DNA from: Bacteroidaceae bacterium
GTDB taxonomy: Bacteria; Bacteroidota; Bacteroidia; Bacteroidales; Bacteroidaceae
Assembly (NCBI GenBank): GCA_017649485.1
Contig: JAGCGS010000069.1
Span: 1-51,079, forward strand
DNA: 51,079 bases
Direction of reading: 5' to 3'
In this document: positions 6,474 through 47,574 of the stretch, piece after piece
Layout of the letters: every line of letters starts with the position of its first letter
Position numbering within the stretch: the first letter of the stretch is position 1
Made by a program: the position numbers and the translations under genes
The notes under the pieces: generated by a model
What the model was told of the DNA's origin: nothing
Database searches by the model: none
The model's input: only the letters and a program-made list of their open reading frames with translations

Positions 6474-7214
6474 ATGAAAAACGACATGCATCAAGGAAGT
6501 GACAGTATTGTAATTATTCCCACATACAACGAGTGCGAGAATATTGAAAAGATAATCCGGGCAGTGTTTGCCCTGGAACACGGATTCCACATATTAGTGG
6601 TTGAGGACAACTCGCCCGATGGCACAGCGGACATTGTAAGGCGTATGCAGGAGGAGTTTCCCGAGCGTCTGTACATGATTGAGCGTACAGGTAAGTTAGG
6701 ACTTGGCACGGCTTATATCGCAGGCTTTAAATGGTCGCTTGAGCAGGGATATGATTACATATTTGAGATGGATGCCGACTTCAGTCACAACCCAGCCGAC
6801 CTGCCAAGGCTCTACGATGCCTGTGCCCATGATGGTGCAGATGTGTCGATTGGCTCACGCTATGTGTCAGGTGTGAATGTGGTGGATTGGCCATTAGGGC
6901 GTGTGCTGATGAGCTATGGAGCATCAAAATACGTGAGGCTCATTACGGGCATTCCAGTGCATGACACAACAGCTGGGTTCGTATGCTACCGCAAGGAAGT
7001 GCTCCAGATGATGGATCTGGACAAGATCCGCTTCAAGGGCTATGCCTTCCAGATTGAAATGAAGTTTACTGCCTGGAAACTGGGCTTCCTCATCAAAGAG
7101 GTGCCTGTTATCTTTGTCAACCGCAAAGAAGGCACGTCGAAGATGAATAGCAGTATTTTTGGCGAAGCGATGTTTGGGGTGATTAGGTTGAAGTGGGATT
7201 CGTTATTCCATTGA
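6474..7214 (+). CDS. Polyprenol-phosphate mannosyltransferase-like GT2 (Dpm1 family)
   Basis: The 246-residue GT-A fold enzyme is expected to transfer a hexose from a nucleotide sugar to undecaprenyl phosphate on the cytoplasmic face of the inner membrane. Visible motifs are IIPTYNE at the N-terminus, VVEDNSPDGT, the metal-binding FEMDADFSHNP near residue 96, and GSRYVSG followed by TAGFVCYR, all typical of dolichol-phosphate mannose synthases. There is no C-terminal membrane domain, so it is the short soluble type. I chose ATG 6474 because the promoter box lies just before it. The TGA stop lies inside the first unit of a heptamer array that fills the spacer to dihydroorotase, a frequent neighbour in Bacteroidales. 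Confidence 0.85.
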   Translation: MKNDMHQGSDSIVIIPTYNECENIEKIIRAVFALEHGFHILVVEDNSPDGTADIVRRMQEEFPERLYMIERTGKLGLGTAYIAGFKWSLEQGYDYIFEMDADFSHNPADLPRLYDACAHDGADVSIGSRYVSGVNVVDWPLGRVLMSYGASKYVRLITGIPVHDTTAGFVCYRKEVLQMMDLDKIRFKGYAFQIEMKFTAWKLGFLIKEVPVIFVNRKEGTSKMNSSIFGEAMFGVIRLKWDSLFH

Positions 7215-7286
7215 CGATTGACGATTGACAATTGACAATTGACCATTGAAAATTGACAATTGACCATTGAGAATTGAGAATTGAAG
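7210..7286 (+). repeat. Heptamer array, 11 units (ATTGACG/ATTGACA/ATTGAGA type)
   Basis: Eleven consecutive 7-bp units starting ATTGA run from the last codons of the glycosyltransferase, whose TGA is in unit 1, to 3 nt before ATG 7290 of dihydroorotase. The array makes up the whole spacer. Confidence 0.95.
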
Positions 7287-7289
7287 ATT

Positions 7290-8645
7290 ATGGGTAGGAC
7301 ATTGATTCATAATGTGATGATAGTGAATGAGGGCAAGCTATTTAAGGGTGCTGTCATCATTGAAGGGGAACGTATTGTAGCCGTAATAGACGGACAAGTT
7401 TACAACGAAGACGACTTTGACACAGTTATCAACGGTCAATGGTCAATGGTCGATGGTCAATCTCTTTATTTGTTGCCCGGTGTGATTGACTCACATGTTC
7501 ATTTTCGTGACCCAGGTTTGACGCATAAGGCTGACATCAACTCTGAGAGCAGAGCTGCTGTTGCCGGAGGGGTGACTTCGGTGATGGATATGCCAAACAC
7601 CAATCCACAGACCACCACCTTAGAGGACTGGGAAGCGAAGATGGATAACTTCGCTCAACATAGTTTGGTAAATTATAGTTGCTATTTCGGAGCAACCAAC
7701 ACAAACTATGACCTGTTTGACAAGTTGGACAAGAGTCGTGTGCCTGGCATCAAGCTTTTTATGGGCTCCAGTACAGGCAATATGCTAGTGGATAGAAAAG
7801 AAAGCTTACGCCACATCTTCGGTGGTACTGACATGCTGATTATGGCTCATTGCGAAGATCAACATACCATCAGTGAGAATACGGCAAAGTACAGAGGAGC
7901 AGATGGTGATGCCCCCATCGAGTTGCATCCCATCATCCGTTCAGAGGAAGCGTGTTGGCTCTCTTCTAAGTTGGCAGTAGAATTAGCCCAGGAGACTAAT
8001 GCCCGCCTGCATATAGCCCATATATCAACGGCTCGCGAGTTGGCTCTGCTATCTGACAAGCCTTTGGAACAGAAACGCATTACTAGTGAGGTATGTATCT
8101 CTCACCTGATGTTTAATGATACTGATTATCAAAGATTAGGGGCAAGAGTGAAGTGTAACCCTGCGGTGAAAAGCCTGGCAGACCAACAGGCATTGCAACA
8201 TGCTCTGCAAGGCAATTTGCTGGACACAGTGGCAACAGACCATGCCCCTCATCTGCTGAGCGAGAAGGAAGGGGGAGCATTGAAAGCAATGTCGGGCATG
8301 CCGAGCATTCAGTTCTCATTGAATTGTATGCTGGAGTTGGTAGATAAGGGAATTATCACTATGGAGACATTGGTGCAGAAGATGTGCCACAACCCCGCCC
8401 TGCTCTATCACATCCAAGGACGAGGCTTTATCCGACCAGGCTATCAGGCGGATTTGGTGTTAGTCAGACCATGTAATCCTTGGACGGTTTCGGATGAGAT
8501 GGTGCAGAGCAAGTGTGGCTGGAGTCCTCTTGCTGGTCATCAGTTTAATTGGCAAATAGAACGTACTTTCGTTAATGGCAACCAAGTATATTTCGACGGA
8601 AACATTTCAAACAATCATAAAGGACAATCATTAATTTTTAATTAG
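7290..8645 (+). CDS. pyrC: Dihydroorotase
   Basis: This amidohydrolase cyclises carbamoyl-aspartate to dihydroorotate in pyrimidine synthesis. Metal-binding HVHFRDPG (His69, His71), the lysine of PGIKLFMGSS, the histidines of MAHCED and HIAHIST, and the Asp of ATDHAPH are present, so it should be active. Length (451) is normal. I chose ATG 7290; a TTG three codons upstream lies in the heptamer array. Residues 48-57 (NGQWSMVDGQ) are encoded by four heptamer units and sit in the N-terminal small beta domain just before the barrel, where a loop insertion would be tolerated. The next gene starts 1 bp after the stop, so it is operonic. Confidence 0.92.
   Translation: MGRTLIHNVMIVNEGKLFKGAVIIEGERIVAVIDGQVYNEDDFDTVINGQWSMVDGQSLYLLPGVIDSHVHFRDPGLTHKADINSESRAAVAGGVTSVMDMPNTNPQTTTLEDWEAKMDNFAQHSLVNYSCYFGATNTNYDLFDKLDKSRVPGIKLFMGSSTGNMLVDRKESLRHIFGGTDMLIMAHCEDQHTISENTAKYRGADGDAPIELHPIIRSEEACWLSSKLAVELAQETNARLHIAHISTARELALLSDKPLEQKRITSEVCISHLMFNDTDYQRLGARVKCNPAVKSLADQQALQHALQGNLLDTVATDHAPHLLSEKEGGALKAMSGMPSIQFSLNCMLELVDKGIITMETLVQKMCHNPALLYHIQGRGFIRPGYQADLVLVRPCNPWTVSDEMVQSKCGWSPLAGHQFNWQIERTFVNGNQVYFDGNISNNHKGQSLIFN
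7434..7461 (+). repeat. Intragenic heptamer array in pyrC, 4 units (GGTCAAT)
   Basis: GGTCAAT, GGTCAAT, GGTCGAT, GGTCAAT lie back to back within the coding sequence. This orientation has no stop codon in any frame. Confidence 0.95.
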
Positions 8646-8646
8646 C

Positions 8647-9498
8647 ATGAAATATAATAGACGATCATTTCTCAAGACAGGTCTGGCAGGTGGTGCCGCT
8701 TTGGCAATCAGTGGTTGCAACTCCTCTTCAGTTAAAATGGAAGCACCCAAGACCACAGCTGCCGACAATAAGTTTCATCTGAGTTGCGCAGATTGGACTT
8801 TCCATCTATTTGACATCGACACGGCACTGCAGACATTGCAGAAGTGCGATATCCACTACCTCTGCATCAAGGATTTCCATTTGCCTCTGGATGCTACCGA
8901 CGAGCAAATCAAGGCATTTCACGAGAAATGTGCCTCTTATGGTGTTACAGGGTATGGTGTAGGTCCAATCTACCAAAACACCGAGGAAGAGGTGGACAAA
9001 GCCTTTGCTTATTGCCGCAAGGTGGGTGCCAAGGTGATGTTGTCAGTGCCTCCTTACGAACTGCTTCCCTATGTGGATAAGAAAATCAAGGAATACCCCG
9101 AAATCAAATATGCCATCCACCTGCATGGACCAGATTTGGATGTATATCAGGATGCCACAGTGATATGGGACAAGGTGAAAGACCTCGACCCCAATATAGG
9201 CATGTGCCTGGATATCGGTCATGATTTCCGCAATGGAGCCGACCCTGTGGCTGATCTTGAGAAATACCATACCCGTGTGTTTGACATGCACATCAAGGAT
9301 GAGACTGACAACTCCAAGGAGGGCCAGTGCATAGAGATGGGACGAGGCAAAATCGACTTCCCCGCTTTTGTACGCATGATGCGACAGGTGGGTTACGATG
9401 GCATGTGCAGCCTTGAGTATGAGAAAGACATGGACAATCCTTTCATAGGTATTGCCGAGTCATACGGATATATGAAAGCTGTGTGCCAACTGGCTTGA
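8647..9498 (+). CDS. Tat-dependent lipoprotein, sugar phosphate isomerase/epimerase-like TIM barrel
   Basis: The 283-residue protein has a combined Tat and lipoprotein signal: NRRSFLKTG (residues 4-12) and lipobox AISGC with Cys24. The rest is a TIM barrel with candidate metal ligands in AIHLHGPD, CLDIGHD, DMHIKDE and SLEYEKD. Relatives are often annotated as xylose-isomerase-like proteins and several act in periplasmic 3-keto-glycoside degradation, but no partner oxidoreductase or DUF1080 gene is beside it here, so the reaction is unknown. It starts 1 bp after pyrC. Its stop codon lies inside the next heptamer array. Confidence 0.75.
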   Translation: MKYNRRSFLKTGLAGGAALAISGCNSSSVKMEAPKTTAADNKFHLSCADWTFHLFDIDTALQTLQKCDIHYLCIKDFHLPLDATDEQIKAFHEKCASYGVTGYGVGPIYQNTEEEVDKAFAYCRKVGAKVMLSVPPYELLPYVDKKIKEYPEIKYAIHLHGPDLDVYQDATVIWDKVKDLDPNIGMCLDIGHDFRNGADPVADLEKYHTRVFDMHIKDETDNSKEGQCIEMGRGKIDFPAFVRMMRQVGYDGMCSLEYEKDMDNPFIGIAESYGYMKAVCQLA

Positions 9499-9550
9499 CC
9501 ATTGACCATTGACCATTAACCATTGAAGGTTGAAGATTGAAGATTGATAA
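9495..9550 (+). repeat. Heptamer array, 8 units (TTGACCA to TTGAAGA)
   Basis: The units are TTGACCA three times, TTAACCA, TTGAAGG, TTGAAGA twice and TTGATAA. The array includes the stop of the preceding gene (9496-9498) and the only plausible start codon (TTG 9537) of the following one. Confidence 0.95.
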
Positions 9551-10436
9551 TTCTATAAGGTTTGCATTTAGTATAAGCGAGGTCGCTGACTTCGTGAATT
9601 GGCTATACTTCTTCCATGCTTGGGGATTCAAGCCTCGCTTTGCTTCTATCTCTCAGGTGCATAATTGCATGGCATGTCAGACAGCCTGGATGAATAGCTT
9701 TCCTATAGAAGAACAGGCAAAGGCCAAAGAAGCCATCAAGCTGATGGAAGATGCCCGCCAAATTTTGCAGGAGTTAGATGGCAAGCTGACATGCCAGTGT
9801 GTCTTCCAACTGTTTGATGCCAACACATCGGGTGATAATTTACTGATAAACGGTGTTTTGTTCCCGCTATTAAGACAACAATATGAGCATGAGGCTGGGA
9901 AACCTAATCTCTGTCTAAGTGACTTTGTAAGGCCTGTGGAAACGGGTGAATCTGATAAGGTGGGGATATTTGCCGCCACAATAGATGATACATCACAGTT
10001 GGAAACAGACGATGCCTACCGCAAGTTATTGGTGCAAACCTTGTGCGACCGACTGGTGGAGGCATCTGTTGAGAGGCCTCACCTATTGGTGAGGAAGGAG
10101 ATATGGGGATATGCTCCTGAAGAACATCTCAGTATTCCTGACCTATTGTTGGAGAAGTTTCAAGGTATCAGACCTGCCGTGGGCTATCCCTCCCTACCCG
10201 ACCAGTCGGTAAACTTCATCATCGACCAGCTGATAAACCTCAGTAGTATTGGCATTACACTCACAGAAAACGGAGCCATGCATCCACATGCTTCAGTGAG
10301 TGGACTGATGTTGGCACATCCGCAAGCCCGTTATTTCAGTATAGGGAAAATTGGTGAGGACCAACTAACAGATTATTCACAACGACGGGGACTTCCCATA
10401 GAGACGATGAGGAAGTTCCTGGCGGCAAACTTATAA
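9537..10436 (+). CDS. Vitamin B12-dependent methionine synthase activation-domain protein
   Basis: The C-terminal half matches the AdoMet-binding activation domain of MetH (EIWGYAPEEHLS, GIRPAVGYPSLPDQ, TENGAMHPHASVSGLM). In cobalamin-dependent methionine synthase this domain supports reductive remethylation of inactive cob(II)alamin. The N-terminal 100 residues contain MACQTAW and CQC motifs. Stand-alone copies occur in Bacteroidales, whose MetH may lack this domain. No ATG lies before the conserved region; the first in-frame start is TTG 9537 inside the heptamer array, just after an in-frame stop at 9531. The true start is therefore uncertain. It lies 4 bp ahead of the metallophosphoesterase. 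Confidence 0.8.
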   Translation: MKIDNSIRFAFSISEVADFVNWLYFFHAWGFKPRFASISQVHNCMACQTAWMNSFPIEEQAKAKEAIKLMEDARQILQELDGKLTCQCVFQLFDANTSGDNLLINGVLFPLLRQQYEHEAGKPNLCLSDFVRPVETGESDKVGIFAATIDDTSQLETDDAYRKLLVQTLCDRLVEASVERPHLLVRKEIWGYAPEEHLSIPDLLLEKFQGIRPAVGYPSLPDQSVNFIIDQLINLSSIGITLTENGAMHPHASVSGLMLAHPQARYFSIGKIGEDQLTDYSQRRGLPIETMRKFLAANL

Positions 10437-10440
10437 GATT

Positions 10441-15332: not shown

Positions 15333-15355
15333 AATAATTGGGTTTATTTTGGCTA

Positions 15356-15363: not shown

Positions 15364-15372
15364 ATAAATCTT

Positions 15373-25412: not shown

Positions 25413-25778
25413 GCATTACAAATGCTCATATTCACTACGTTCGGTTTGCAAAATCGCGAGTAAGCGAGAGCAGAGTCAAGCTTGCCTTGAACTATGCCGA
25501 GCATGAGCGATTTATCTAAATCCGAACGAACGAAGGGGACCGAACGAACGAAGGGGACCGAACGAACAAGGGAATGCCGAGCATGAGCGATTTATCTATA
25601 TCCGAACGAACAGGGAAACGAACGAACGGGGAACGGCGTGAACGAACGTGATAACTGTGTATCTGTTCGTTCGGATTTGTAATCCGAACGCATCGAATAT
25701 TAGGATTTGCAATCCGATAAGATTTTTTCCGCATTACAAATGCTCATACTCAGCCCGTTCGGATTACAAATCCGAACG
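25413..25778. repeat. REP-like palindrome cluster (GGATTTGTAATCC family) with CGAACGAACG tracts
   Basis: Perfect stems with 3-nt TGT/ACA loops occur at 25413-25425 and 25731-25743 (GCATTACAAATGC), 25668-25690 (arms CGTTCGGATT/AATCCGAACG), 25703-25715 (GGATTTGCAATCC) and 25756-25778 (arms as at 25668, inverted). Between them lie tracts of CCGAACGAACGAAGGGGA and two copies of GCCGAGCATGAGCGATTTAT. No protein-coding signal is seen; the ORFs here are translations of the repeats. Confidence 0.75.
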
Positions 25779-25842
25779 AACGGGGTGATAACTGTGTGTT
25801 TCATGTTGTCAAAGATCGCTTTTCTGGAACAACGAGCAAAAA

Positions 25843-25968
25843 CTCAATTGTCAACGGTCAATGGTCACTTCTCGGAGCAGCGAGTGCAGAGCGATGCTTG
25901 CATCAGCTATGCCGAGTCGCGACGAGATTGGAGCGAAGCTCAACGGTCAATGGTCAACGGTCAACGAC
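25843..25968. repeat. Two short heptamer runs (GTCAACG/GTCAATG units)
   Basis: Runs of three to four units occur at 25843-25867 and 25940-25968 in otherwise non-coding DNA. Between and after them (to about 26180) I see nothing gene-like. Confidence 0.75.
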
Positions 25969-26185
25969 AACACCTCCGCAAAGGCAAGCCAACGCCTGCT
26001 TCAGGTTGTCCCGATATCTCCCATTACCCGTCGGAAAGCTTCCTTTCCCCCTATAGGAATGCTTCCCGTCAGTCGTGGGAGATACTGCGACAGGTCGTGG
26101 GAACGTCTTCCCTTGACCATAGCAGATATTACCATCCCGGATGACGATGCAAAGTTACAACATGGCAAAATAAATACTATACCCA

Positions 26186-26248
26186 TTGGTACTCTTTGGT
26201 ACCCATTGGTACCCTTTTGTGCTTTTTGGGCAGCATTTGATATCTTTG
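26186..26248 (+). promoter_or_regulatory. Promoter with three phased TTGGTAC boxes
   Basis: TTGGTAC occurs at 26186, 26196 and 26206, exactly 10 bp apart. It is followed by TTTG at 26216-26219 and the -7 box TATCTTTG at 26241-26248, with 21 nt between. This is a complete Bacteroidota promoter with a helically phased operator next to the -33 element. Confidence 0.6.
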
Positions 26249-29447: not shown

Positions 29448-30658
29448 TGAAAAGTATCAAAGAAATATTTCGCATTGGCGTGGGGCCTTCAAGTAGTCAT
29501 ACCATGGGTCCCAAGCAAGCCTCCCAACTATTCAAGGAGCGTCATCCTGATGCCTTCCGCTTCAAGGTGACCCTCTATGGTAGCTTAGCAGCCACCGGCA
29601 AGGGTCACTTGACAGATGTAGCCATCCGTGAAGAGCTGGAACCTGTGGCTCCTGTGCAAATCGTATGGGAGCCAAAAGTATTCCTACCCTATCATCCCAA
29701 TGGCATGAACTTCAAAGCGATGGATCAAAACGAGCATATAACGGATGATTGGACAGTCTATAGCGTGGGAGGTGGCGCACTCGAAACAGAGGAAGGTCCT
29801 GTAGGCTTAAACAACGTTGGTGACATTTATCCGATGACAAACCTTACTGACATCATGGAATGGTGCGACCGCACAGGACGAAGCTATTGGGAATATGTGG
29901 CGAAATATGAAGATACGGATATTTGGGACTATTTGCAGGAAGTGTGGACAGTGATGAAGCAAGCCATTGAACGAGGTCTTGAGGCTGAGGGTGTCTTGCC
30001 TGGTCCGCTGAACCTGCGACGCAAGGCCATCACTTACTATCTAAGGGCAAAAGGCTATCAGGGTACCCTGCGTTCCAGGGGTATGGTGTTTGCATACGCC
30101 TTGGCTGCGAGCGAGGAAAATGCCTCAGGTGGTAAGATTGTAACTGCACCTACCTGTGGTAGCTGCGGCGTATTGCCTGCCGTGCTCTACTCCCTGCATC
30201 TGACGCATGATTTCAGCGATACACGCATCTTGCGAGCTTTGGCAACAGCCGGTCTGATTGGTAACATCGTCAAGGAAAACGCTTCTATATCAGGTGCCGA
30301 TGTGGGTTGTCAAGGTGAGGTGGGTGTAGCCTGCGCTATGGCATCAGCAGCTGCTTGCCAACTCTTTGGAGGCAGTCCTTCTCAGATTGAATATGCAGCC
30401 GAGATGGGATTGGAGCATCACTTGGGCATGACTTGCGACCCTGTCTGTGGCTTGGTGCAGATTCCTTGCATCGAACGCAACGCATACGCAGCTGCCAGAG
30501 CCTTGGATGCCAATATCTATGCCACCTTTACAGATGGCCACCACCGTGTATCCTTCGACCGTGTGGTGGATGTCATGAACAAAACTGGCCATGACCTGCC
30601 TTCACTCTACAAAGAGACCAGTGAAGGAGGGTTGGCGAAATTGAAGATTGAACATTGA
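29447..30658 (+). CDS. sdaA: L-serine ammonia-lyase, single-chain iron-sulfur type
   Basis: Converts L-serine to pyruvate and ammonia. The beta-domain start (GVGPSSSHTMGPKQA) and alpha-domain cysteines for the [4Fe-4S] cluster (PTCGSCGVLP, DVGCQGEVG, MTCDPVCGLVQIPC) are present. I chose ATG 29447, which overlaps the preceding stop as TGATG; a TTG one codon earlier is unlikely. The last codons (KLKIEH and TGA) are encoded by the start of the heptamer array, so the original C-terminus appears replaced or extended by repeat DNA. Confidence 0.92.
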   Translation: MKSIKEIFRIGVGPSSSHTMGPKQASQLFKERHPDAFRFKVTLYGSLAATGKGHLTDVAIREELEPVAPVQIVWEPKVFLPYHPNGMNFKAMDQNEHITDDWTVYSVGGGALETEEGPVGLNNVGDIYPMTNLTDIMEWCDRTGRSYWEYVAKYEDTDIWDYLQEVWTVMKQAIERGLEAEGVLPGPLNLRRKAITYYLRAKGYQGTLRSRGMVFAYALAASEENASGGKIVTAPTCGSCGVLPAVLYSLHLTHDFSDTRILRALATAGLIGNIVKENASISGADVGCQGEVGVACAMASAAACQLFGGSPSQIEYAAEMGLEHHLGMTCDPVCGLVQIPCIERNAYAAARALDANIYATFTDGHHRVSFDRVVDVMNKTGHDLPSLYKETSEGGLAKLKIEH

Positions 30659-30787
30659 AGATTGAAGATTGAAGATTGAAGATTCAACATTGAAGATTCA
30701 ACATTGAAGATTGAACATTGAAGATTCAACATTGAAGATTGAACATTGAAGATTCAACATTGAAGATTCAACATTGAAGATTGAAAA
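30641..30787 (+). repeat. Longest heptamer array, 21 units (TTGAAGA/TTCAACA/TTGAACA)
   Basis: Twenty-one contiguous 7-bp units with a higher-order pattern: four TTGAAGA in a row, then TTGAAGA alternating with TTCAACA or TTGAACA. It runs from inside the sdaA 3' end to the bidirectional terminator. Confidence 0.97.
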
Positions 30788-30811: not shown

Positions 30812-31984
30812 CTATAATTTACCTTTTGAAGATGGCAATTCGTAGTGATATATATCACGGCGGATTGCCATTTTTATTGCCCTGGCAAAAGCCTTGAATA
30901 TCCCTTCTATCTTATGATGCTCATTCTGTCCCTCAGCCTTGACATTCAGGTTCATCTTGGCTGAATCACTGAGTGACTTGAAGAAATGCAGGAACATCTC
31001 CGTTGGCATCTCCCCTATCTTCTCACGCTTGAACTCTGCATCCCAAACCAACCAGGGTCTGCCACCAAAATCCAAGCTCACCTGACAGAGGCAATCGTCC
31101 ATCGGCAGGCAATAGCCATATCGCTCAATGCCTCGTTTACTACCTAAGGCTTTATAAAGGCATTCGCCCAAAGCTAAAGCAGTATCTTCAATGGTATGAT
31201 GCTCATCCACATACAAATCGCCTTTCACCTCAATCTGCAGGTCAATGCCTCCATGCTTGCCAATCTGTTCCAGCATGTGGTCAAAGAAGCCTAAACCAGT
31301 ATTAATGACGCACTCACCATGTCCGTCCAAGTTCACCGCCACACGGATATCAGTTTCCTTCGTTGTACGCCTTACCTCCGCTTTACGTTCACCAGCAAAC
31401 AGAAACTCAGCCACTTTGTCCCAATCATCAGTTGTCAATACACAACATGCCTGGAGGTCTTCACGCCCCTGCAAGCAACTCGTATCTGGTTGCAACAAGA
31501 TAGCCTGACATCCCAGGTTCTTAGCCAACTCAACATCCGAAGGTCTGTCACCTATCACATAACTGTGTGCCAAATCGTACTCAGGATTATCGAGATAATG
31601 CTGAAGCATCCCCGTTCTTGGCTTGCGGTTTGGAGAATTATCTTCTGGCATGGAAGGGTCAATACATACCTCATCAAACGCGATGCCCTCACCCGCCAAA
31701 GTCTGCATTACCAGATTATGCACAGGCCAGAACGTTTCAGACGGAAAAGAACTCGTACCCAATCCATCTTGGTTGGTCACCATCACAAAACGAAAGTCCA
31801 ACTTACTACGGATGAAGCTCAAGTTTCGCATCACCTTGGGATAGAACTGCAACTTCTCAAAAGCGTCAAGCTGATAATCCACTGGCGGTTCTATCACCAA
31901 TGTGCCATCACGGTCGATAAAAAGCATGCGCTTTATTGAGCCATTGACCATCAACGATTGACTATTATCTTTCATCATTTCCAT
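30812..31984 (-). CDS. hisB: Bifunctional histidinol-phosphatase / imidazoleglycerol-phosphate dehydratase
   Basis: Catalyses two steps of histidine synthesis in the cytosol. The N-terminal HAD phosphatase shows [13 protein letters not shown] and a metal-binding loop; the C-terminal dehydratase starts at about residue 200 with the His motifs ([21 protein letters not shown]). The stop of hisD-hisC overlaps the start; ATG 31978, giving an ATGA overlap, is an equally good start to ATG 31984. Residues just after the start ([12 protein letters not shown]) are encoded by heptamer-type repeat and extend the usual N-terminus by about 15 residues. Third gene of the his operon. Confidence 0.93.
31936..31965 (-). 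repeat. Heptamer-derived segment at the hisB 5' end
   Basis: On the coding strand the units GTCAATC, GTTGATG, GTCAATG and GCTCAAT, slightly degenerate, encode residues before the HAD domain. They are in the stop-free orientation. Confidence 0.7.
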
Positions 31985-34311
31985 CTCTTTAATGCTGCTA
32001 TTAAGGTATCATTTTCATCAGGAGTTCCAACCGTGATGCGCAAACAGTTGCCACATAAGGTTACAGAATTGCGATTCCTCACAATAATGCCCTCTCCCAC
32101 CAAATACTTATAGATGGCATTAGCATCCTGCACACGGGCGAGGAAGAAGTTGGCGTCCGAAGGAAACACCTGCTGTGTCAAAGGCAACTCAGCAAACAAC
32201 GACATCAATCGGCTTCGCTCTGTTTTCAGTACTTCAACCCATGCCTTTGTCTGTGCTGCGTTACGCAAAGTCTCCAACGCCTGGCGTTGTGTGAGCATAT
32301 TCACATTATAAGGATATTTCACCTTATTAAACAATCCAATAATCTCTACTGAGGCAAAAGCCATTCCTAAACGGATAGCAGCACAGCCCCATGCCTTCGA
32401 GAATGTCTGCAACACAATCAAGTTAGGGTACTTGTCCAACAACTTGGTAAAAGATGGCTGCTCGGAGAAGTCGATATAGGCCTCATCCACCACCACAATG
32501 CCCCAGAAATTTTGCAGCAACATCTCCACCTCTGCATGACTCATGTCATTGCCAGTAGGGTTATTCGGTGTACAGAGAAACATCAATTTAGTATGATTAT
32601 CTGAAACTTTCAATAAATCATCAGCATGGAATTGATAATTAGCATCAAGCTGCACCTTGCGATATTCTACGTCGTTCACATCGGCACAAACCTGATACAT
32701 ACCATAACTGGGGTCTATTGCCACAGCATTATCCACTCCAGGATTACAGAAGATGCGATATACCAAATCGATGGCCTCATCACTACCATTACCGCAGAAG
32801 ATTCTATCTTCACTCACGCCTTTCACCTTAGAAATCTCATGCTTCAGCTCTGTCTGCAACGGATCGGGATAACGGTTGATCGGACCATTATACGGATTTT
32901 CATTGGCATCTAAGAACACACTAGCATCCACACCGCTATATTCATTACGGGCACAAGAATAAGGTGCAAGGTTCCAGATGTTCTTACGTACAAATGATTG
33001 AAGATTGAAGATTGAAGATTGAAGATTATTATCTATGTTGGTCAGTCTTACGGTTACGGCATTCTTATGGGCATCGAGTTGTTCGTTGGCTGCCATCACT
33101 TCTATAGCCTTGCCTATATTGCCTATGCCTTGGGCAGAAAGTTCCTGATAGGTAATCTTGCGACAGAAGCTGTCGAGATTCACGCCATTATACGCCTTGG
33201 CATAACCGTTCGTTGGCAAGGTGTGGTTGGTACCAGAGGCATAGTCGCCTGCACTCTCACAAGCAAAGCGACCTAAGAACACTGACCCGGCATTGACAAT
33301 TCGCTTCGCCACATCACGATAGTCACGCGTCTGAATAATCAAATGTTCTGGTGCATATTCATTGGTTAGATTAATGGCTTCATCCATGGAGCTAACCACA
33401 ATCAGCTTACTGTTAGCTAACGACTTCTGCGCAATCTCCTGACGAGGTAATTCTTTCAGTTGACGATCTACTTCCTCTTTCACTGCCTGGAGCATCTCCA
33501 TAGAGGTAGTCACCAGCATCGCCTGACTATCCACACCATGCTCAGCCTGACTCAGTAAGTCGGCAGCTACAAACACTGGATTAGCTGTTTCATCTGCCAA
33601 GACCAATACCTCAGAAGGTCCTGCAGGCATATCAATCGCCACATCGCCCATGCTCACCAACTGCTTGGCAGCGGTAACATATTGATTACCTGGACCGAAT
33701 ATCTTATATACCCGAGGTACTGTCTCTGTGCCATAAGCCATTGCGCCAATGGCTTGCACACCACCTATTTTAAATATCTTACTAACGCCAGCTGTCTTGG
33801 CAGCAAACAGAACGGCAGGATGCACTTTGCCATTACGTCCAGGAGGAGTGCACAGCACAAATTCCCGACAACCTGCAATCTGAGCAGGTACGGCGAGCAT
33901 CAGTACTGTAGAGAACAAAGGAGCTGTACCACCAGGGATATAGAGTCCAACCTTCTCGATGGCCACTGACTCTTGCCAACAGGTAACACCAGGTTGTGTT
34001 TCTACCTGTACACCTGCAAAACGCTGAGCTTCATGAAACTTGGCTATATTCTCCTTTGCCAGTCGGATAGCAGCTTTCAGCTCATCAGAAACCAAGCCTT
34101 CTGCTTCCATTATCTCAGCATCCGATACAGCAAGGGTAGCCAGCTGAACATGGTCGAAAGTTTCCTCATAGCCCAATACAGCCTTGTCACCATTAGCTTT
34201 CACGTCATTCAGGATGACACGTACCTTATCATGCAGCTGCCCAGTGTCCATCATGGGTCTTTTAAGCAGCTCACTCCATTCCTTCCTCTCAGGATTATTT
34301 ATTATTCTCAT
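31975..34311 (-). CDS. hisD-hisC: HisD-HisC fusion: histidinol dehydrogenase joined to histidinol-phosphate aminotransferase
   Basis: One frame of 778 residues. Residues 1-425 are HisD with zinc/active-site motifs ([24 protein letters not shown]) and end at [13 protein letters not shown]. Residues from about 440 are HisC ([17 protein letters not shown], substrate/PLP motifs [19 protein letters not shown] lysine in [14 protein letters not shown]). They are normally separate genes. The junction is four CTTCAAT heptamers, read as LQSSIFN, with no stop and no ATG for an independent HisC. I chose ATG 34311; an upstream TTG at 34338 lies in repeat DNA. Both enzymes look intact. Confidence 0.9.
32997..33024 (-). 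repeat. Heptamer array at the HisD-HisC junction, 4 units
   Basis: Four perfect CTTCAAT units on the coding strand join the two enzymes in frame. Confidence 0.97.
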
Positions 34312-34325
34312 ATTATCTTTCAAAT

Positions 34326-34360
34326 GGTCAATCGTCAATGGTCAATCGTCAATCTTCAAA
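34326..34360 (-). repeat. Heptamer array in the hisG-hisD spacer, 5 units
   Basis: On the minus strand the units are ATTGACG and ATTGACC in alternation. The hisG stop codon lies in the first unit. The array makes up most of the 44-bp spacer. Confidence 0.93.
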
Positions 34361-37756: not shown

Positions 37757-37840
37757 ATTACTAATAAGTAGGCAGAGCTATTAGTAATAAGTAGGATGAG
37801 TTATTAGTAATAGGTGGCATGAGCTATTACTAATAGCTCA
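37757..37840. repeat. 23-bp tandem repeat, 3.6 units, ending in a palindrome
   Basis: Units begin at 37757, 37780, 37803 and 37826, each starting ATTACTAATA or ATTAGTAATA and ending in GAGCT or GAGTT. The last junction, GAGCTATTACTAATAGCTC (37821-37839), is a perfect 9-bp inverted repeat that may end the minus-strand PatB transcript or a nearby one. Confidence 0.75.
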
Positions 37841-39135: not shown

Positions 39136-39145
39136 AAACAAAAGA

Positions 39146-40384
39146 TTAATCCACCAAACACTTATCGAGTGCTTCTGCAATAGCCTCCTTGTCGAGATGC
39201 TGGCCAATGAACACCAACTTCTGCATGCGATCACCATATTTTTCGTCCCAATCACGGCGAAGACCTGGCTCACGATCCATCATCTCCAAAAGCTCATTCT
39301 TAGGCATAGTAGCATACCACTGACCCGCATTGCGAAGGTTTACTTGCTTACCTGCCTGTTCGAACACATAGCAGATGTCACGCTCTTCAACAAAGTAACA
39401 CAAGCCCTTGGCACGAATCACATTCTTTGGCCAAAAACGTGCTACAAACTCATCGAAACGGGAAGAGTCGAATGCCTGGCGACGGTAATAGACGTATGTA
39501 CCAATGCCGTATTCCTCCGCCTCTCCTTCATCGTGATGATGGTGGTGATGATGGCCATTGACCATTGATTCATCTTCATCATCGTCGTCATGATGGTGGT
39601 GGTGATCATGTTCGTCATCATCATCGTCATCATCATCGTGATATTCCGCCTCTACCTCACTAATCCAACGAGCTGAGGTTGCCACCTTGTCGAAATCAAA
39701 CATACGGGTATTGAGTATCTTATCCAACTCCACATCCCCATAGTCACAAGGAATAATCTCTGCCTGTGGTTGGAGAGCTTTCACGATTTCCTTGAGGCGT
39801 TGTAACTCCTCCTCACTCACCTCACTCGCCTTGTTCAGTAGCACAATGTTACAAAACTCTATCTGTTGAATCACCAGATTCTCGATATCCTCCTCACCAA
39901 TCTGCGCATTCAATAAATCCAGTCCACCAGCAAACTCATCTTTCATACGCAAAGCATCAACCACAGTCACTATGCAATCCAGTCGCACAGATCCAATACC
40001 TGCATAAGGGGGATAAATCTTGTCCATCGAACAGATGGTTTGTGCAATAGGGCCAGGCTCGCAGATGCCGCTTGCCTCGATGACGATATAATCGAAACGA
40101 CGCATACGCATGATGTCACTCAACTGTTCCACCAAGTCCATCTTCAAGGTACAACAGATACAGCCATTCTGCAATGCCACCAAGCTATCGTCTTTTTGTC
40201 CCACAATGCCACCCTTCTCAATCAGGTCGGCATCTATATTCACTTCACCTATGTCGTTCACTATCACGGCAAACTTAATACCGCGTTCATTGGTCAGGAT
40301 ACGATTAAGCAACGTAGTTTTGCCACTGCCCAGATAACCTGTAAGCAACAGCAAAGGCAATTCATTTTTCAGCTTTATTTCCAT
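39146..40384 (-). CDS. COG0523 (CobW/ZNG-like) GTP-dependent metallochaperone with His/Asp-rich loop
   Basis: The 412-residue G3E GTPase has Walker A (GYLGSGKTT, residues 16-24), the metal-binding GCICC motif (C75-C78), and a CobW C-terminal domain. Between them (about residues 244-288) is a stretch of alternating poly-Asp and poly-His blocks, a likely zinc reservoir. Inside it, ESMVNG is encoded by two heptamer units. COG0523 proteins deliver zinc or other metals to client enzymes. The co-transcribed PatB-like protein has no known metal need, so the link is not obvious. Start ATG 40384. Confidence 0.88.
   Translation of the reverse strand: MEIKLKNELPLLLLTGYLGSGKTTLLNRILTNERGIKFAVIVNDIGEVNIDADLIEKGGIVGQKDDSLVALQNGCICCTLKMDLVEQLSDIMRMRRFDYIVIEASGICEPGPIAQTICSMDKIYPPYAGIGSVRLDCIVTVVDALRMKDEFAGGLDLLNAQIGEEDIENLVIQQIEFCNIVLLNKASEVSEEELQRLKEIVKALQPQAEIIPCDYGDVELDKILNTRMFDFDKVATSARWISEVEAEYHDDDDDDDDEHDHHHHHDDDDEDESMVNGHHHHHHHDEGEAEEYGIGTYVYYRRQAFDSSRFDEFVARFWPKNVIRAKGLCYFVEERDICYVFEQAGKQVNLRNAGQWYATMPKNELLEMMDREPGLRRDWDEKYGDRMQKLVFIGQHLDKEAIAEALDKCLVD
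39554..39570 (-). repeat. Intragenic heptamer pair in the His-rich loop
   Basis: On the coding strand TCAATGG occurs twice between the two poly-His blocks, in the open orientation. Confidence 0.75.
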
Positions 40385-40404
40385 GTTTTTCAGTTTTTAA
40401 TATG

Positions 40405-40412
40405 CAAAGATA
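40405..40412 (-). promoter_or_regulatory. -7 box TATCTTTG of the COG0523-PatB operon
   Basis: Minus strand, 21 nt before ATG 40384. I saw no obvious palindromic Zur-like site in the spacer. Confidence 0.6.
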
Positions 40413-40479
40413 GCGGATTTATTAGAATATTTTGTAACTTTACCTCGAAATAAATCTAAATCAATAAAATATTTTGACT

Positions 40480-41478
40480 ATGGCTATCTATAAACAACCA
40501 GGAAGCAATGGAGAAATCTATGTTCCCATTGAACAGAGAACAGGTAATGAATCTATTGTTTATTTCACCCGTGATCTATCTGCTGAAGGATTGGTCAAGG
40601 CTTACGAGCAAGTGAACGGTCAGATTCAGGGAAATGTGGGTGTTAAATTGCACACAGGTGAACAGAACGGTCCTAACATCATCCCACGTGAATGGGTTAA
40701 GGCTTTGATGGAGAAACATCTGCCAAAAGCTAACATCATTGAGACAAATACGTATTATGATGGCGACCGCTATACCACAGAGCTGCATCGCAAGACTTTG
40801 GAGGTGAACGGTTGGACTTTCTGCTACGTGGATATCCTCGATGACGAAGGCACTGCCCTGCTACCAGTGAAAGGTGGCAAATGGTTTAAGAATATGTCAG
40901 TGGGCGTGAATCTGACCAATTATGATTCTATGGTAACGCTCACTCACTTCAAAGGCCATGTGGCTGGTGGTTTTGGAGGTAGTAACAAGAACATCGGCAT
41001 TGGTTGTGCCGATGGACGCATTGGCAAGGCTTGGATTCACACCACACCTGGTCAGCCCGATCAGTGGGATATTGTGATGGAAGAGTTGATGGAGCGTATC
41101 AGTGAGTCAACGAAGGCTACCATTGATTTCTTTGGCAAGCACGTGACTTACGTGAATGTGATGCGTAACATGTCTGTATCATGCGACTGTGAGGGTTTGG
41201 CAGCAGAGCCTGTGGTAACACCCAATGTGGGTATCCTCTCCTCTACCGATATTCTGGCCATTGACCAGGCTTGCATCGACATTGTTTTTGCGATGAAGGA
41301 GGAAGAACATAACGCACTGGTTGAGCGTATCGTGAGTCGTCACGGATTGAGGCAGCTGTCTTATATGAAGGAGCTGGGTATGGGTAATGATCGCTATGTG
41401 CTGATTGACCTTGACAATGGTGGCAGAAGGATGACTGTGCAGGAAGCTGTGCAAGGGCTGAAGCCGTTTACTTATTGA
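40480..41478 (+). CDS. DUF362 domain protein
   Basis: The 332-residue protein matches DUF362 proteins by VGVKLHTGEQNGPNIIP, IETNTYYDGDRY, VNLTNYDSMVTLTHFKGH, and GGFGGSNKNIGIGCADG. Many DUF362 proteins carry a [4Fe-4S] ferredoxin domain; here only scattered Cys (SCDCEG) remain and no signal peptide is present. The role is unknown. I chose ATG 40480 over a TTG two codons upstream. The TGA stop falls in the first unit of the following heptamer array. Confidence 0.8.
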   Translation: MAIYKQPGSNGEIYVPIEQRTGNESIVYFTRDLSAEGLVKAYEQVNGQIQGNVGVKLHTGEQNGPNIIPREWVKALMEKHLPKANIIETNTYYDGDRYTTELHRKTLEVNGWTFCYVDILDDEGTALLPVKGGKWFKNMSVGVNLTNYDSMVTLTHFKGHVAGGFGGSNKNIGIGCADGRIGKAWIHTTPGQPDQWDIVMEELMERISESTKATIDFFGKHVTYVNVMRNMSVSCDCEGLAAEPVVTPNVGILSSTDILAIDQACIDIVFAMKEEEHNALVERIVSRHGLRQLSYMKELGMGNDRYVLIDLDNGGRRMTVQEAVQGLKPFTY

Positions 41479-41529
41479 CCATTGACAATTGAACATTGAA
41501 CATTGAACATTGACAATTAAGAACTGAGA
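41474..41529 (+). repeat. Heptamer array filling the DUF362-GH16 spacer, 8 units
   Basis: Eight 7-bp units (ATTGACC, ATTGACA, three ATTGAAC, ATTGACA, ATTAAGA, ACTGAGA) run from the DUF362 stop codon exactly to the base before ATG 41530. Confidence 0.95.
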
Positions 41530-42345: not shown

Positions 42346-42349
42346 TTCG

Positions 42350-42357
42350 TAACTTCG
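42350..42357 (+). promoter_or_regulatory. -7 box TAACTTCG of the M13 peptidase gene
   Basis: One mismatch to TAnnTTTG, with TTTG at 42324-42327 about 22 nt upstream. Confidence 0.45.
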
Positions 42358-42396
42358 CAGCCGAAATGATGTTTAAACATTAAAATGTTATTTAAA

Positions 42397-44430: not shown

Positions 44431-44450
44431 TCAAAGAGATTTGACTTATA

Positions 44451-44484
44451 AAAAAAGGCTGCATTCAATCGTGCAGCCTTTTTT
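44451..44484. terminator. Bidirectional terminator between M13 peptidase and TSCPD genes
   Basis: AAAAAAGGCTGCA and TGCAGCCTTTTTT form a 13-bp perfect stem with an 8-nt loop, followed by T-rich sequence on both strands. Confidence 0.9.
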
Positions 44485-44487
44485 GCA

Positions 44488-44739
44488 TCATTGAGCCAAA
44501 GCTTGACCAACGGCTTTCGCGAATTGGTCAGCACAAGAAGTGTTTTTGTTGCCGCAGGTATTGCCACGTAAGCGGTTAACCGCCCACTGAGCATCAGCAC
44601 CTTCCAACAACTTGGAAATAGCTTTCAGGTTACCGTCACAACCATTGGTGAAACGGATATTATGCAACTTACCATCTTCAATATCGAAATCAATACACTT
44701 GGAGCAAACTCCCTCTGGGATATAAGAATAATGTGCCAT
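44488..44739 (-). CDS. TSCPD-domain protein (TIGR03905 type)
   Basis: An 83-residue protein: EGVCSKCIDFDIEDG, FTNGCDGNLKAISKLLEG and NTCGNKNTSCADQFAKA match the TSCPD domain, a Cys-rich zinc-binding module also found at the C-terminus of vitamin B12-dependent ribonucleotide reductases. Stand-alone forms have no known function. Single gene with its own promoter, divergent from metA. Confidence 0.85.
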   Translation of the reverse strand: MAHYSYIPEGVCSKCIDFDIEDGKLHNIRFTNGCDGNLKAISKLLEGADAQWAVNRLRGNTCGNKNTSCADQFAKAVGQALAQ

Positions 44740-44766
44740 AACGTTAATGTGTTAATAATTTTGCCG

Positions 44767-44774
44767 CAAAGATA
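44767..44774 (-). promoter_or_regulatory. -7 box TATCTTTG of the TSCPD gene
   Basis: Minus strand, 27 nt before ATG 44739. Confidence 0.6.
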
Positions 44775-44796
44775 AGAAATATATTTTTATAATCCG

Positions 44797-44804
44797 TATC
44801 TTTG
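44797..44804 (+). promoter_or_regulatory. -7 box TATCTTTG of metA
   Basis: 23 nt before ATG 44828. The leader is too short for a SAM riboswitch, and none is seen. Confidence 0.65.
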
Positions 44805-44827
44805 CACCGAAATAAAGCAAATGAACT

Positions 44828-45745
44828 ATGCCACTTAATATACCCAAGACATTGCCGGCAGTAGATCTGCTGAAGAAAGAGAATATTTTCGTGATGGATG
44901 ACCTCAGGGCAGGCTCGCAGGATATTCGTCCCCTGCGCATTGCCGTACTGAACCTGATGCCCTTGAAAATCACTACGGAAACAGACTTGATAAGGTTGCT
45001 TTCCAACTCTCCTTTGCAGATTGAGTTATCGCTGATGAAAATCAAGAGTCACACATCAAAGAATACACCTGTGGAACACATGCGCATGTTCTACACCGAC
45101 TTCGAGGAGATGCGCCATCACAAATATGATGGCATGATTATCACAGGTGCTCCTGTCGAGCAGTTTGAGTATGAGGATGTGACCTATTGGGACGAGCTGA
45201 CGGATATCTTCGACTGGGCACGTACCCATGTCACTTCTACTTTATATATCTGTTGGGCAGCTCAGGCAGGTCTGTATCATTTCTATGGAGTACCCAAATA
45301 TCCCCTCGACAAGAAGATGTTCGGCATCTTCGAGCATCAAGTATTGGAACCCTTCTGTCCCATCTTCAGAGGCTTTGATGATCGTTTCTTTGTGCCACAT
45401 AGCCGTCATACGGAAATACGCAAGGAGGACATTCTGAAGGTTCCCGGATTGACTGTCCTCTCAGAATCAGCCATTTCGGGTGTACACATGGTGATGGCAC
45501 GTGGTGGCAGGGAGTTTTTTGTGACAGGTCATTCTGAGTATTCACCCATGACACTTGATAATGAATACAAGCGTGACCTTGGCAAAGGCTTGCCCATTGA
45601 GATGCCGTTGAACTACTACCAAAACGATGACCCTGAGCAAGGGGTGATTGTGCGATGGCGTGCTCATGCCAACCTGCTCTTTACCAACTGGCTGAACTAT
45701 TACGTATATCAGGAAACTCCTTACGATATTGAAACAATTCACTAA
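44828..45745 (+). CDS. metA: Homoserine O-acyltransferase MetA (predicted acetyltransferase)
   Basis: First committed enzyme of methionine synthesis, 305 residues. The catalytic triad is C142 (YICWAAQAG), H235 and E237 (TGHSEYSP). Residue 111 is Glu (GAPVE); work on Bacillus and E. coli MetA showed that Glu here selects acetyl-CoA while Gly selects succinyl-CoA. Databases often name such proteins succinyltransferases, but this residue predicts acetyl transfer. Its stop overlaps the start of the U32 gene (TAATG). Confidence 0.93.
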   Translation: MPLNIPKTLPAVDLLKKENIFVMDDLRAGSQDIRPLRIAVLNLMPLKITTETDLIRLLSNSPLQIELSLMKIKSHTSKNTPVEHMRMFYTDFEEMRHHKYDGMIITGAPVEQFEYEDVTYWDELTDIFDWARTHVTSTLYICWAAQAGLYHFYGVPKYPLDKKMFGIFEHQVLEPFCPIFRGFDDRFFVPHSRHTEIRKEDILKVPGLTVLSESAISGVHMVMARGGREFFVTGHSEYSPMTLDNEYKRDLGKGLPIEMPLNYYQNDDPEQGVIVRWRAHANLLFTNWLNYYVYQETPYDIETIH

Positions 45746-47574
45746 TGATTAAAGGTCAATGGTCAATCGAGTTATTAGCTCCTGCAAAGAATATAGAATG
45801 TGGCTTAGCTGCCATAGACCATGGAGCTGATGCAGTGTATATCGGAGCCCCCAAGTTTGGAGCACGAGCAGCTGCTGGCAATTCCATTGAAGACATTGCC
45901 AAGCTGGTGGACTATGCCCATTTGTTCAATGTGCGTATCTATGTCACAGTAAACACCATACTCAATGATGAAGAACTAGCGGAAACGGAGCAACTGATAT
46001 GGGAGCTGTATCGCATCCATGTTGATGCGTTGATTGTACAGGACATGGGCATCACACAGTTGAGCCTCCCCCCTATCCCCTTGCATGCGAGTACTCAGAT
46101 GGATAACCGGACTGCTGAGAAGGTACGCTTCTTGGCTGATGCTGGGTTCAAACAGGTGGTGTTGGCTCGCGAACTGTCATTAGAAGAGATCAGGCATATC
46201 CATGAGGCTTGTCCTGATGTGGCATTGGAAGTGTTTGTACATGGTGCTTTGTGTGTGAGTTTCAGCGGACAATGCTATGCCTCACAGGCTTGTTTCGGCA
46301 GAAGTGCCAACCGTGGGGAGTGTGCGCAGTTCTGTCGTTTGCCCTTCAACCTGTTAGATGCAAACGGAAAAGAGATTCTGCACGAAAAGCACCTATTGTC
46401 ATTGAAAGACATGAATCAGCTTGACCACCTGGAGGCATTGTTGGATGCAGGTGTAACTTCATTCAAGATTGAAGGACGACTGAAGGATGTGGGTTATGTG
46501 AAGAATGTTACAGCAGCTTATCGTCAGCAACTGGATGCCATCTTCAAACGCAGGAAAGAATATCGCAAAGCTTCATCTGGCACTTCTACCTATACTTTTA
46601 CTCCCGACTTAGCTAAGAGTTTCAACCGAGGCTTCACGCATTTTTTCTTGGAAGGCAGAAAGGACAACATAGCTCAGTTCAACACCCCCAAGGCAATGGG
46701 TGAGGAAATGGGACGCGTTAAGGAGGTGCGAGGCAACCAGATAGTCGTGGCTGGCATCAAACCATTCAACAATGGCGATGGTTTATGTTTCTTAGATAAT
46801 GAAGGACATTTGCAAGGGTTCCGTGTGAATCGTGTGGAGCAAAACCGATTGTTCTTAGCATCAAAAGTAATCGGTTTGATTCCCAAGACCATACTATACC
46901 GTAACCTCGACCAACAGTTTGAGCAGGCCTTGGCTAAGCGCAGTGCGGAACGCAAGATATCCATCTCTTGGCATCTATATGATAACTCTGTTGGATTTGC
47001 CCTATCTGCCCGCGATGAGGATGGCAACGAAGTTACCCTCTCCTTCCCTTGCGAAAAGCAGTTTGCAGAGAAACCTCAACAGGAGAATATTATCAAACTA
47101 CTCTCAAAACTCGGCAACACCGTTTATTCCATTGACCATTTACCATTGACCGTTGACCATTATTTCATTCCTTCTTCTTTGTTGGCTGATTGGCGCAGGC
47201 TGGTAATAGATGAGCTTACTCGCCTTCGTCGCATCAACTATCGACAGGAAGTAGCTGTATGGAAACAGACGGAGCATCCTTATCTGCAAAAGAGCCTAAC
47301 CTATTTGGGCAATGTCATGAACCAGCAAGCTAAGGCATTCTATGCCGGCCATGGGGTTACTCAGATTGACGATGCTTTCGAGAAGAAACCCACCGACCAG
47401 GCAGTGGTGATGTTCTGCAAGCATTGCATTAGGTTTGCTATGGGTTGGTGCCCTACCAGGCAACAAGGAAAGTCGCCTTACAAGGAGCCATATTTCCTTC
47501 AGAGCTTGGATGGCAAGGAGTTTAAGTTGGAGTTTGATTGTAGGAACTGCCAAATGAAAGTCGTTAAACAGTGA
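45745..47574 (+). CDS. U32-family peptidase-like protein (RlhA/TrhP type), with repeat insertions
   Basis: The 609-residue protein matches the U32 family, whose characterised members hydroxylate 23S rRNA or tRNA rather than cleave proteins. Visible are LLAPAKNIECGLAAIDHGADAVYIG at the N-terminus in shorter form, HASTQMDNRTAEK, the Cys cluster for [4Fe-4S] (CVSFSGQCYASQACFGRSANRGECAQFC), SFKIEGRLKD, and a C-terminal domain with CKHCIRFAMGWCP and CRNCQM. Residues 3-8 (KGQWSI) and about 463-472 (SIDHLPLTVD) are encoded by heptamer repeats; the second sits in a linker region. It is coupled to metA. Confidence 0.85.
   Translation: MIKGQWSIELLAPAKNIECGLAAIDHGADAVYIGAPKFGARAAAGNSIEDIAKLVDYAHLFNVRIYVTVNTILNDEELAETEQLIWELYRIHVDALIVQDMGITQLSLPPIPLHASTQMDNRTAEKVRFLADAGFKQVVLARELSLEEIRHIHEACPDVALEVFVHGALCVSFSGQCYASQACFGRSANRGECAQFCRLPFNLLDANGKEILHEKHLLSLKDMNQLDHLEALLDAGVTSFKIEGRLKDVGYVKNVTAAYRQQLDAIFKRRKEYRKASSGTSTYTFTPDLAKSFNRGFTHFFLEGRKDNIAQFNTPKAMGEEMGRVKEVRGNQIVVAGIKPFNNGDGLCFLDNEGHLQGFRVNRVEQNRLFLASKVIGLIPKTILYRNLDQQFEQALAKRSAERKISISWHLYDNSVGFALSARDEDGNEVTLSFPCEKQFAEKPQQENIIKLLSKLGNTVYSIDHLPLTVDHYFIPSSLLADWRRLVIDELTRLRRINYRQEVAVWKQTEHPYLQKSLTYLGNVMNQQAKAFYAGHGVTQIDDAFEKKPTDQAVVMFCKHCIRFAMGWCPTRQQGKSPYKEPYFLQSLDGKEFKLEFDCRNCQMKVVKQ
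45754..45767 (+). repeat. Heptamer pair at the U32 gene start
   Basis: GGTCAAT occurs twice, codons 4-8 of the gene, in the open orientation. Confidence 0.85.
47131..47158 (+). repeat. Intragenic heptamer array in the U32 gene, 4 units
   Basis: ATTGACC, ATTTACC, ATTGACC, GTTGACC lie in the normally stop-bearing orientation. The second unit has T for G, turning the in-frame TGA into TTA, so the frame stays open. Confidence 0.9.

Follow-up and report, generated by a model that had tools for sequence, protein, structure and literature searches.

Some dispersed heptanucleotide arrays in a Bacteroidaceae genome are accompanied by a covarying hairpin

Introduction

How heptameric repeats become dispersed in bacterial genomes is an open question. 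In most genomes no class of long simple repeat is more abundant than heptanucleotides (Mrazek 2007, cited in PMC4679880), and the best comparison for the repeats considered here is a family of TAACTGA heptamers found in marine Beggiatoaceae, Cyanobacteria and five Bacteroidetes (MacGregor 2015; PMC4679880). Passages of that paper make the same argument as we do below, that the unit places stop codons in all three frames, and propose that repeats upstream of start codons serve as regulator binding sites; its abstract notes no evident mechanism of transfer. Word searches of the literature returned two further relatives, the GGGNATC heptamers of Xanthomonas and Nostoc (PMC4692102) and the BrickBuilt element of Porphyromonas gingivalis (PMC4596501). 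Here we analyse a 51,079-nt stretch of a Bacteroidaceae bacterium (the window; assembly GCA_017649485.1, contig JAGCGS010000069.1), in which tandem ATTGANN heptamers recur at dispersed loci and are in part accompanied by a structured hairpin of ~88 nt.

A preliminary description of the window knew of no account of this family in Bacteroidales. The ATTGANN unit does differ from its predecessors, but the claim was too strong for heptamers as such in view of the TAACTGA precedent as presented in PMC4679880. Exact-sequence searches for the heptamers and the hairpin in open-licence papers, where absence is no proof, returned nothing relevant. The new finding is the hairpin that accompanies the heptamers. 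With a hairpin that covaries and lineage-specific heptamers that keep a fixed phase to it, dispersal becomes a testable problem: one can ask which mechanism imposes the 7-nt period and how the two parts are moved. The linkers and loops that the repeat has written into conserved enzymes also provide a natural experiment in protein tolerance, and gene callers should be wary of repeats that bring their own start and stop codons.

Results and discussion

Heptamer arrays in the window and the genus

The heptamer repeats are real. ATTGANN-type heptamers are present at all twelve places first listed for the window, and exact ATTGANNATTGA pairs occur 36 times, whereas dinucleotide shuffles average 0.34 and never exceed 2, bearing out the description of twelve loci with tandem 7-bp units. 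ATTGA recurs at a spacing of 7 bases in 36 cases and at other spacings from 5 to 12 in 0 to 2. With a strict detector, the window yields 9 arrays and a set of 14 stretches of the source genome (G000), picked for holding arrays, yields 31; the reversed sequence of either set yields none. Three of the listed entries (31936, 39554 and 45754) comprise two clean or a few degenerate units, each weak alone, and the 25843 and 25940 entries are a single site split by a hairpin. As in heptameric short tandemly repeated repetitive (STRR) and long simple sequence repeat (LSSR) families, the 7-nt tandem units exceed chance and occupy dispersed, mainly non-coding loci.

Confinement of the repeat to the window, which would have refuted the preliminary description, is contradicted by genome and genus scans. 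G000 (2.6 Mb, 82.6% complete) holds 449 three-unit matches (212 forward, 237 reverse) and a single match to the reversed-pattern control, and at least one match is present in 98 of 149 genus genomes. Counts are highly uneven, with only six of the 149 reaching at least 100 matches (449, 330, 299, 224, 193 and 162). The nearest relatives of G000 are metagenome-assembled genomes (MAGs) from ruminants, namely G013 (sheep rumen), G029 (goat) and G006 (roe deer). Control counts are high in other members of the genus (G056, 96; G142, 91; G045, 86; G031, 48; G078, 44). The control, AGTTANN, is TAACTNN on the other strand, i.e. a MacGregor-type heptamer, and its high counts point to TAACTNN arrays, in place of ATTGANN, in some other members of the genus.

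A covarying hairpin beside the arrays

What the original account of the family missed is the accompanying hairpin, present within 30 bases of 12 of the 44 arrays on three contigs taken whole (the window, G000:C8 and G013:C5; 328 kb, 89% coding by a simple open reading frame (ORF) caller). In the window, the covarying core (GGAGCAGCGAG ... CGAGTCGCGAC) with its GAA-loop hairpin lies at 25861..25948 (+; 93.5 bits) between a left array at 25842..25869 (-; array detector) and a right array of the same orientation at 25940..25966 (-). A second copy with a different middle (GAGTAAGCGAG / CGAGCATGAGC) is located at 25444..25532 (+; 50.5 bits, covariance model), and more short tandem repeats occur near both hairpins at 25522-25633 and 26180-26217 (CCGAACGAACGAAGGGGA; TACCCTTTGG). 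From the loci examined we collected 143 distinct copies. In 73 aligned copies, 88.9% of cells at 21 proposed pairs are paired and two-sided changes occur at 17 of the 21; compensating cells number 182, compared to 49.9 in shuffled alignments (reached in 0 of 500) and at most 37 in slid controls, although the structure was drawn from these same sequences, which favours it. For the conserved middle of the hairpin, a helix containing two tandem G.A/A.G steps is a possible drawing. Next comes a second, smaller hairpin, most frequently with a GAA loop (32 of 73), and its best stem scores 3.08 versus 2.36 when shuffled.

G000 contains 17 copies by sequence pattern. A strict pattern, which matched 16 of 158 genomes, had suggested that the hairpin is restricted to the closest kin of G000; this was overturned by the covariance model, which found hairpins in 65 of 157 genus genomes with at most 28 scored per genome. 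A phylum sample of 395 genomes outside the genus gave two single matches. The pattern scan of named genomes matched at least 109 stretches, and Bacteroidales MAGs, often of ruminant origin, make up most of the 80 listed; four rows, from Gammaproteobacteria, Gallionellaceae, Polaromonas and Thermoflexus, have a low core similarity (0.44-0.58), drop out with a longer pattern and look like chance. Model matches in G058, G114 and G023 mostly have a different middle with a similar tip and GAA hairpin, and several are flanked by AATTGAG, AACATTA or AATGTTC-like heptamers. Three loci of G145 (L298, L303 and L318) bear apparently tandem hairpin-like elements (TATAGTGAAAGCC ... CCTATATTCTGCAAA) without heptamers. 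In viral-collection contigs (L319-L331), which may be phage or host DNA, nine stretches have the hairpin pattern and four ATTGACC arrays; the window hairpin was unmatched in named phage and plasmid carriers. No Rfam model matched the window above gathering, and all 12 listed Rfam matches of six hairpin loci fell below it, the best (MIR7504, E 2.4e-8) lying in DNA beside the L075 hairpin.

Hairpin and heptamers are linked in position and phase. Nine of 17 hairpins on the three contigs touch an array, compared to a mean of 0.92 and a maximum of 6 in 2000 random intergenic placements. Around 141 copies, which are not independent events because many are related, autocorrelation at lag 7 is 0.43 and 0.41 on the two sides and 0.23-0.30 at other lags. 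The word shared across the hairpin averages 8.06 nt (permuted 5.48, maximum 5.85 of 200), and 69 of the 141 copies share at least 7 bases on both sides. The flanking unit itself varies by genome (AATTGTC/AATGGTC, AATTGAG, AATGGAG, AATAACC, AATAATG, AACATTG and others). Each of the six genus genomes that reach 100 heptamer matches carries at least 13 hairpins, and a table of at least 30 heptamers by at least 8 hairpins (10/7/3/129) gives a Fisher p of 4e-9, with descent ignored.

Turnover and the origin of the arrays

Comparison with G013 shows turnover at individual sites. Of 24 array clusters of G000, read by eye from alignments, three were unanchored; at the 21 comparable sites G013 has heptamers in the same orientation in nine, in the opposite orientation in two, a different or mixed heptamer in three and none in seven. 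Arrays at three sites (C8:12099, C8:18792 and the U32 site) were labelled "none" automatically and, being visible in G013, were counted by eye; C8:14888, among the seven array-less sites, is occupied in G013 by 528 bases of unlike sequence. Unit number also differs between the two genomes (8 vs 4 at 41474, 2 vs 5 at 39557 and 11 vs 5 at C8:18110). In xseA, the extra DNA of G000 starts with the 3' tail of a hairpin; the extra DNA in a gene for an FAD-dependent protein could alternatively reflect loss in G013.

We consider it probable that array and structured hairpin are the two halves of a dispersed, non-autonomous element found in rumen Bacteroidaceae, and that the surviving copies have been filtered by selection. 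Dispersal by insertion is what we infer from these patterns. Cellular or element-encoded machinery would insert a hairpin together with a heptamer; the heptamers would later grow, shrink and diverge locally through slippage or recombination, and arrays may afterwards lose their hairpin.

A simpler account, to which we assign a low probability but real weight, is that these are ordinary STRR/LSSR repeats in which slippage amplifies heptamers under weak selection, the hairpins being a separate family that shares the same tolerant spots. Polymerase slippage has been proposed for the abundance of heptanucleotide repeats (Mrazek 2007 via PMC4679880). Unit composition fits such local growth: units include ATTGACC, ATTGAAG, ATTGACA and others, every array has its own dominant units, and identity of adjacent units (0.211) is close to that of within-array shuffles (0.220) and above that of a global shuffle (0.130). 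Unit order inside arrays shows no nearest-neighbour signal and, out of six lags tested, a weak excess at 3 and 6 units (p 0.02 and 0.01, respectively). Slippage alone, however, does not place the same unit at many unrelated sites, and the G013 sites of 7210 and 45754 lack an ATTGA seed from which it could start. Nor does it explain why the hairpin tends to be bordered on either side by the same heptamer in fixed phase, or why hairpins contact arrays above intergenic chance.

Several observations weigh against a composite element and favour the slippage account in part. Thirty-two of the 44 arrays lack a hairpin within 30 bases, and seven of the 17 genomes with at least 30 heptamer matches hold 0-1 hairpins (G061, 74 matches; G007, 60; G136, 58; G047, 56; G142, 44; G038, 43; G109, 42). 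Conversely, G027, G124 and G145 are hairpin-rich with few ATTGANN heptamers, and hairpins of G105 and G145 lack heptamer flanks. The genus-wide Spearman correlation is only 0.22, uncorrected for descent, and in 30 out-of-sample copies lag 7 leads lag 6 only slightly (0.350 vs 0.321). Three copies fold as single strands with unremarkable energies (z -0.36 to -1.66). Inspection by eye of 7210, 45754, xseA and L209 against G013, where divergence blurs the edges, revealed no target-site duplication. Finally, no partner gene was found in a search of incomplete MAGs for the Y1 transposase (PF01797) alone, which matched 5 of 16 genomes but not G013, despite the 37 hairpin matches of the latter.

In a stronger version of the composite element, which we regard as doubtful, a conserved hairpin core would bear direct tandem repeats of 7 nt on either end and represent a new kind of bacterial repeat. 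The mechanism would fix the period and leave the heptamer sequence free and lineage-specific, and the element would spread through genomes and write the linkers, loops and start and stop codons of housekeeping proteins. If true, this arrangement would be in keeping with repeats that are added by templating, or locked in register, as the element inserts.

Gene boundaries and built-in stop codons

Because TGA recurs every 7 bases in a forward ATTGANN array, all three forward frames contain stops. On the reverse strand, seven of the eight unit types tested stay open, ATTGACT being the exception, and ATG is present in ATTGACC and ATTGAAC units. Of the 44 arrays on the three contigs, 19 are in ORFs, 15 in tandem spacers and nine in convergent spacers; the one called divergent is the hisG-hisD junction, a miscall. 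Arrays outside ORFs (25 of 44) thus exceed the share of such DNA (about 11% of bases), and to this extent the proposed gene-boundary preference is a real enrichment in non-coding DNA. Its more striking part, the exact fit between stop and start, is largely built in by the forward repeat because that repeat carries stop codons. Two arrays do fill such an interval as reported, an 11-unit array between a glycosyltransferase and an amidohydrolase gene (7210..7286, +; Pfam) and an 8-unit array between a DUF362 and a GH16 gene (41474..41529, +), but the observation is partly circular because both stops (7212-7214 and 41476-41478) are the arrays' own TGA. Targeting of gene boundaries as the main cause was rejected since the stops come from forward arrays. 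Purifying selection would remove copies that break a domain or promoter, and the boundary pattern would therefore be mainly tolerance plus built-in stops. Divergent spacers look avoided, with 1 of the 25 intergenic arrays (the miscall); measured by spacer length the deficit is significant (p 0.006), whereas by spacer number it is not (p 0.16). An array-chosen sample of 40, which overlaps the 44, has 11 arrays in ORFs (nine opposite to the gene, two in the same orientation), 18 in tandem, 11 in convergent and none in divergent spacers.

By analogy with the proposal made for TAACTGA repeats, the arrays might be binding sites of a translational or RNA-level regulator. Arrays in tandem spacers are co-oriented with their genes in 10 of 15 cases (13 of 18 in the overlapping array-chosen sample), which speaks for such a role. 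This bias is weak, convergent spacers (9/44) and ORFs (19/44) hold arrays as well, and position, orientation and units are often unlike those in G013, making this explanation improbable.

Arrays and hairpins within proteins

The claim that the repeat enters coding sequences was upheld by the 19 arrays in ORFs. All but one of these run opposite to the gene, mostly the stop-free orientation; the sole same-orientation array is in a U32 peptidase gene (4 units, 47131..47158, +), where TTA stands at the position at which a regular unit gives an in-frame TGA. In genes examined, arrays mostly occupy linkers, loops and N-termini: the HisD-HisC linker, the junction between two CobW domains, the N-termini of hisB-like, U32, XseA and PAP2 proteins, and internal sites in a GH2 enzyme (between two domains), a sulfatase-family protein, an FAD-dependent protein and an ABC-ATPase. 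One array falls within a Pfam match of the FAD-dependent protein and the U32 array within a DUF3656 match. The start codons of xseA (start uncertain) and the ABC-ATPase gene likely lie inside an array.

Insertion into unrelated conserved genes in frame is seen in the U32 loop and the ABC-ATPase linker. The U32 loop has heptamers in 6 of 13 species, in either orientation and with a hairpin in two of them: arrays are forward in G000 and reverse in G013, G153 and G008, G029 has a hairpin with a reverse array, and G006 has a hairpin with a different heptamer. The other seven species have at most one unit; the comparison leaves out G155, with contigs broken at the loop, and G058, with a distant paralogue only. 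In the ABC-ATPase, the G000 linker is an in-frame array-hairpin-array of about 75 residues, that of G013 a 9-unit array without hairpin, and 12 other relatives have other, mostly shorter linkers, with what by eye resembles one or two units in G006 and G058. Hairpins with their flanks fall in long open frames in 16 of 119 cases, of which 15 have the same strand and 11 the same frame, though some share an ORF and the ORFs were only partly checked as genes. Peptides of the main frame resemble FLEQREQSDACIGYAESRQN; three other consensus frames are also open.

Arrays in ORFs and at gene starts raise the possibility of contingency loci, in which unit gain or loss shifts the frame and switches genes on and off. 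The arithmetic put forward earlier is correct, 7 being coprime with 3, but the frame was kept on both sides of the array in the two proteins compared across species. With housekeeping genes among those hit (HisDC, CobW, U32, ABC-ATPase and XseA), we regard switching as very improbable.

Individual loci of the window

The array at 7210..7286 is missing at the orthologous site of G013. A listed TTG start at 7281 falls within it, and alignment with G013 places the likely amidohydrolase start at ATG 7290-7292. An open-orientation array follows in the same ORF directly ahead of the Pfam domain (7427..7461, -), again without a counterpart in G013. At 9494..9549 (+; Pfam, array detector) an array marks the end of an AP_endonuc_2-family gene ahead of a Met_synt_B12-domain gene, and G013 has heptamers in the opposite orientation. 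The 21-unit array in the convergent spacer after a serine dehydratase gene (30640..30786, +) contains the ORF stop 30656-30658, and the same spot in G013 has AATGAAG-type heptamers and a hairpin. Degenerate heptamers at the N-terminus of the hisB-like ORF (31936..31964, +; gene on -) correspond to an array plus hairpin in G013. The two units linking the CobW domains (39557..39570, +) and the 41474 array, of unchanged orientation in G013, are retained with the altered unit numbers given above; two open-orientation units at the U32 N-terminus (45754..45767, -) are absent in G013.

HisD and HisC form one fused ORF (31975-34338), with a 4-unit array in the linker (32997..33024, +) that is open in the direction of the gene. 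An array is also present in the G013 linker; there are no heptamers in G137, G029, G027, G008, G153 or G124. The array as cause of the fusion was rejected because these array-less relatives likewise lack a stop at the junction; aligned genus members G040, G150, G017, G024 and G105 have one. A further array spans the hisG stop and hisDC start (34326..34360, -).

Two other repeats were observed in the window, a 23-base unit in 3.4 tandem copies at 37757-37835 (ATTACTAATAAGTGGCATGAGCT) and a 46-base tandem repeat with a GGGGATTTGTAATCCCC palindrome that reaches the contig end (50911-51079).

Comparison with known systems

The hairpin is small, palindromic and multi-copy, traits shared with miniature inverted-repeat transposable elements (MITEs). 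Repetitive extragenic palindromic (REP) elements, which belong to REP-associated tyrosine transposase (RAYT) systems, are high-copy small hairpins in spacers. Unlike in REP/RAYT systems, the Y1 transposase was unmatched in 8 of 13 hairpin-rich genomes searched, G013 included (all incomplete MAGs), leaving a RAYT partner unsupported. One Y1-like ORF of 183 residues in G000 (L089, C14:3131-3382) adjoins a palindrome of another family (CGTTCGGATTTGTAATCCGAACG), with a heptamer array some 500 bases off, and is possibly a RAYT with its own REP family.

According to passages of PMC10969869, Rickettsia palindromic elements are likewise short palindromes lying in frame in unrelated genes and encoding a conserved peptide. 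The likeness considered here is functional only: they belong to another phylum, and those passages do not mention flanking heptamer arrays. BrickBuilt, as presented in PMC4596501, is a Bacteroidales MITE that joins a tandem repeat to a small inverted-repeat element; its unit is 23 nt, it is always intergenic and the repeat is inside the element, whereas here the repeat surrounds the hairpin.

Among heptamers, the GGGNATC repeats are similarly dispersed, prefer spacers between aligned ORFs and are under-represented in coding DNA and between divergent ORFs (PMC4692102). They form G-quadruplexes and prefer four units, unlike the present units, which lack G-tracts and are commonly inserted in coding sequences. 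The greatest resemblance is to the TAACTGA repeats as portrayed in passages of PMC4679880: a 7-nt unit in many short, dispersed, mostly intergenic arrays, one orientation stopped in all frames and the other open, a patchy taxonomic spread and occasional overlap of ORFs at the protein periphery. The unit described here, ATTGANN, is a different one with two variable bases. Moreover, the arrays enter inter-domain linkers and loops, several lineage-specific heptamers surround one hairpin, and such an accompanying hairpin is unmentioned for TAACTGA repeats in those passages.

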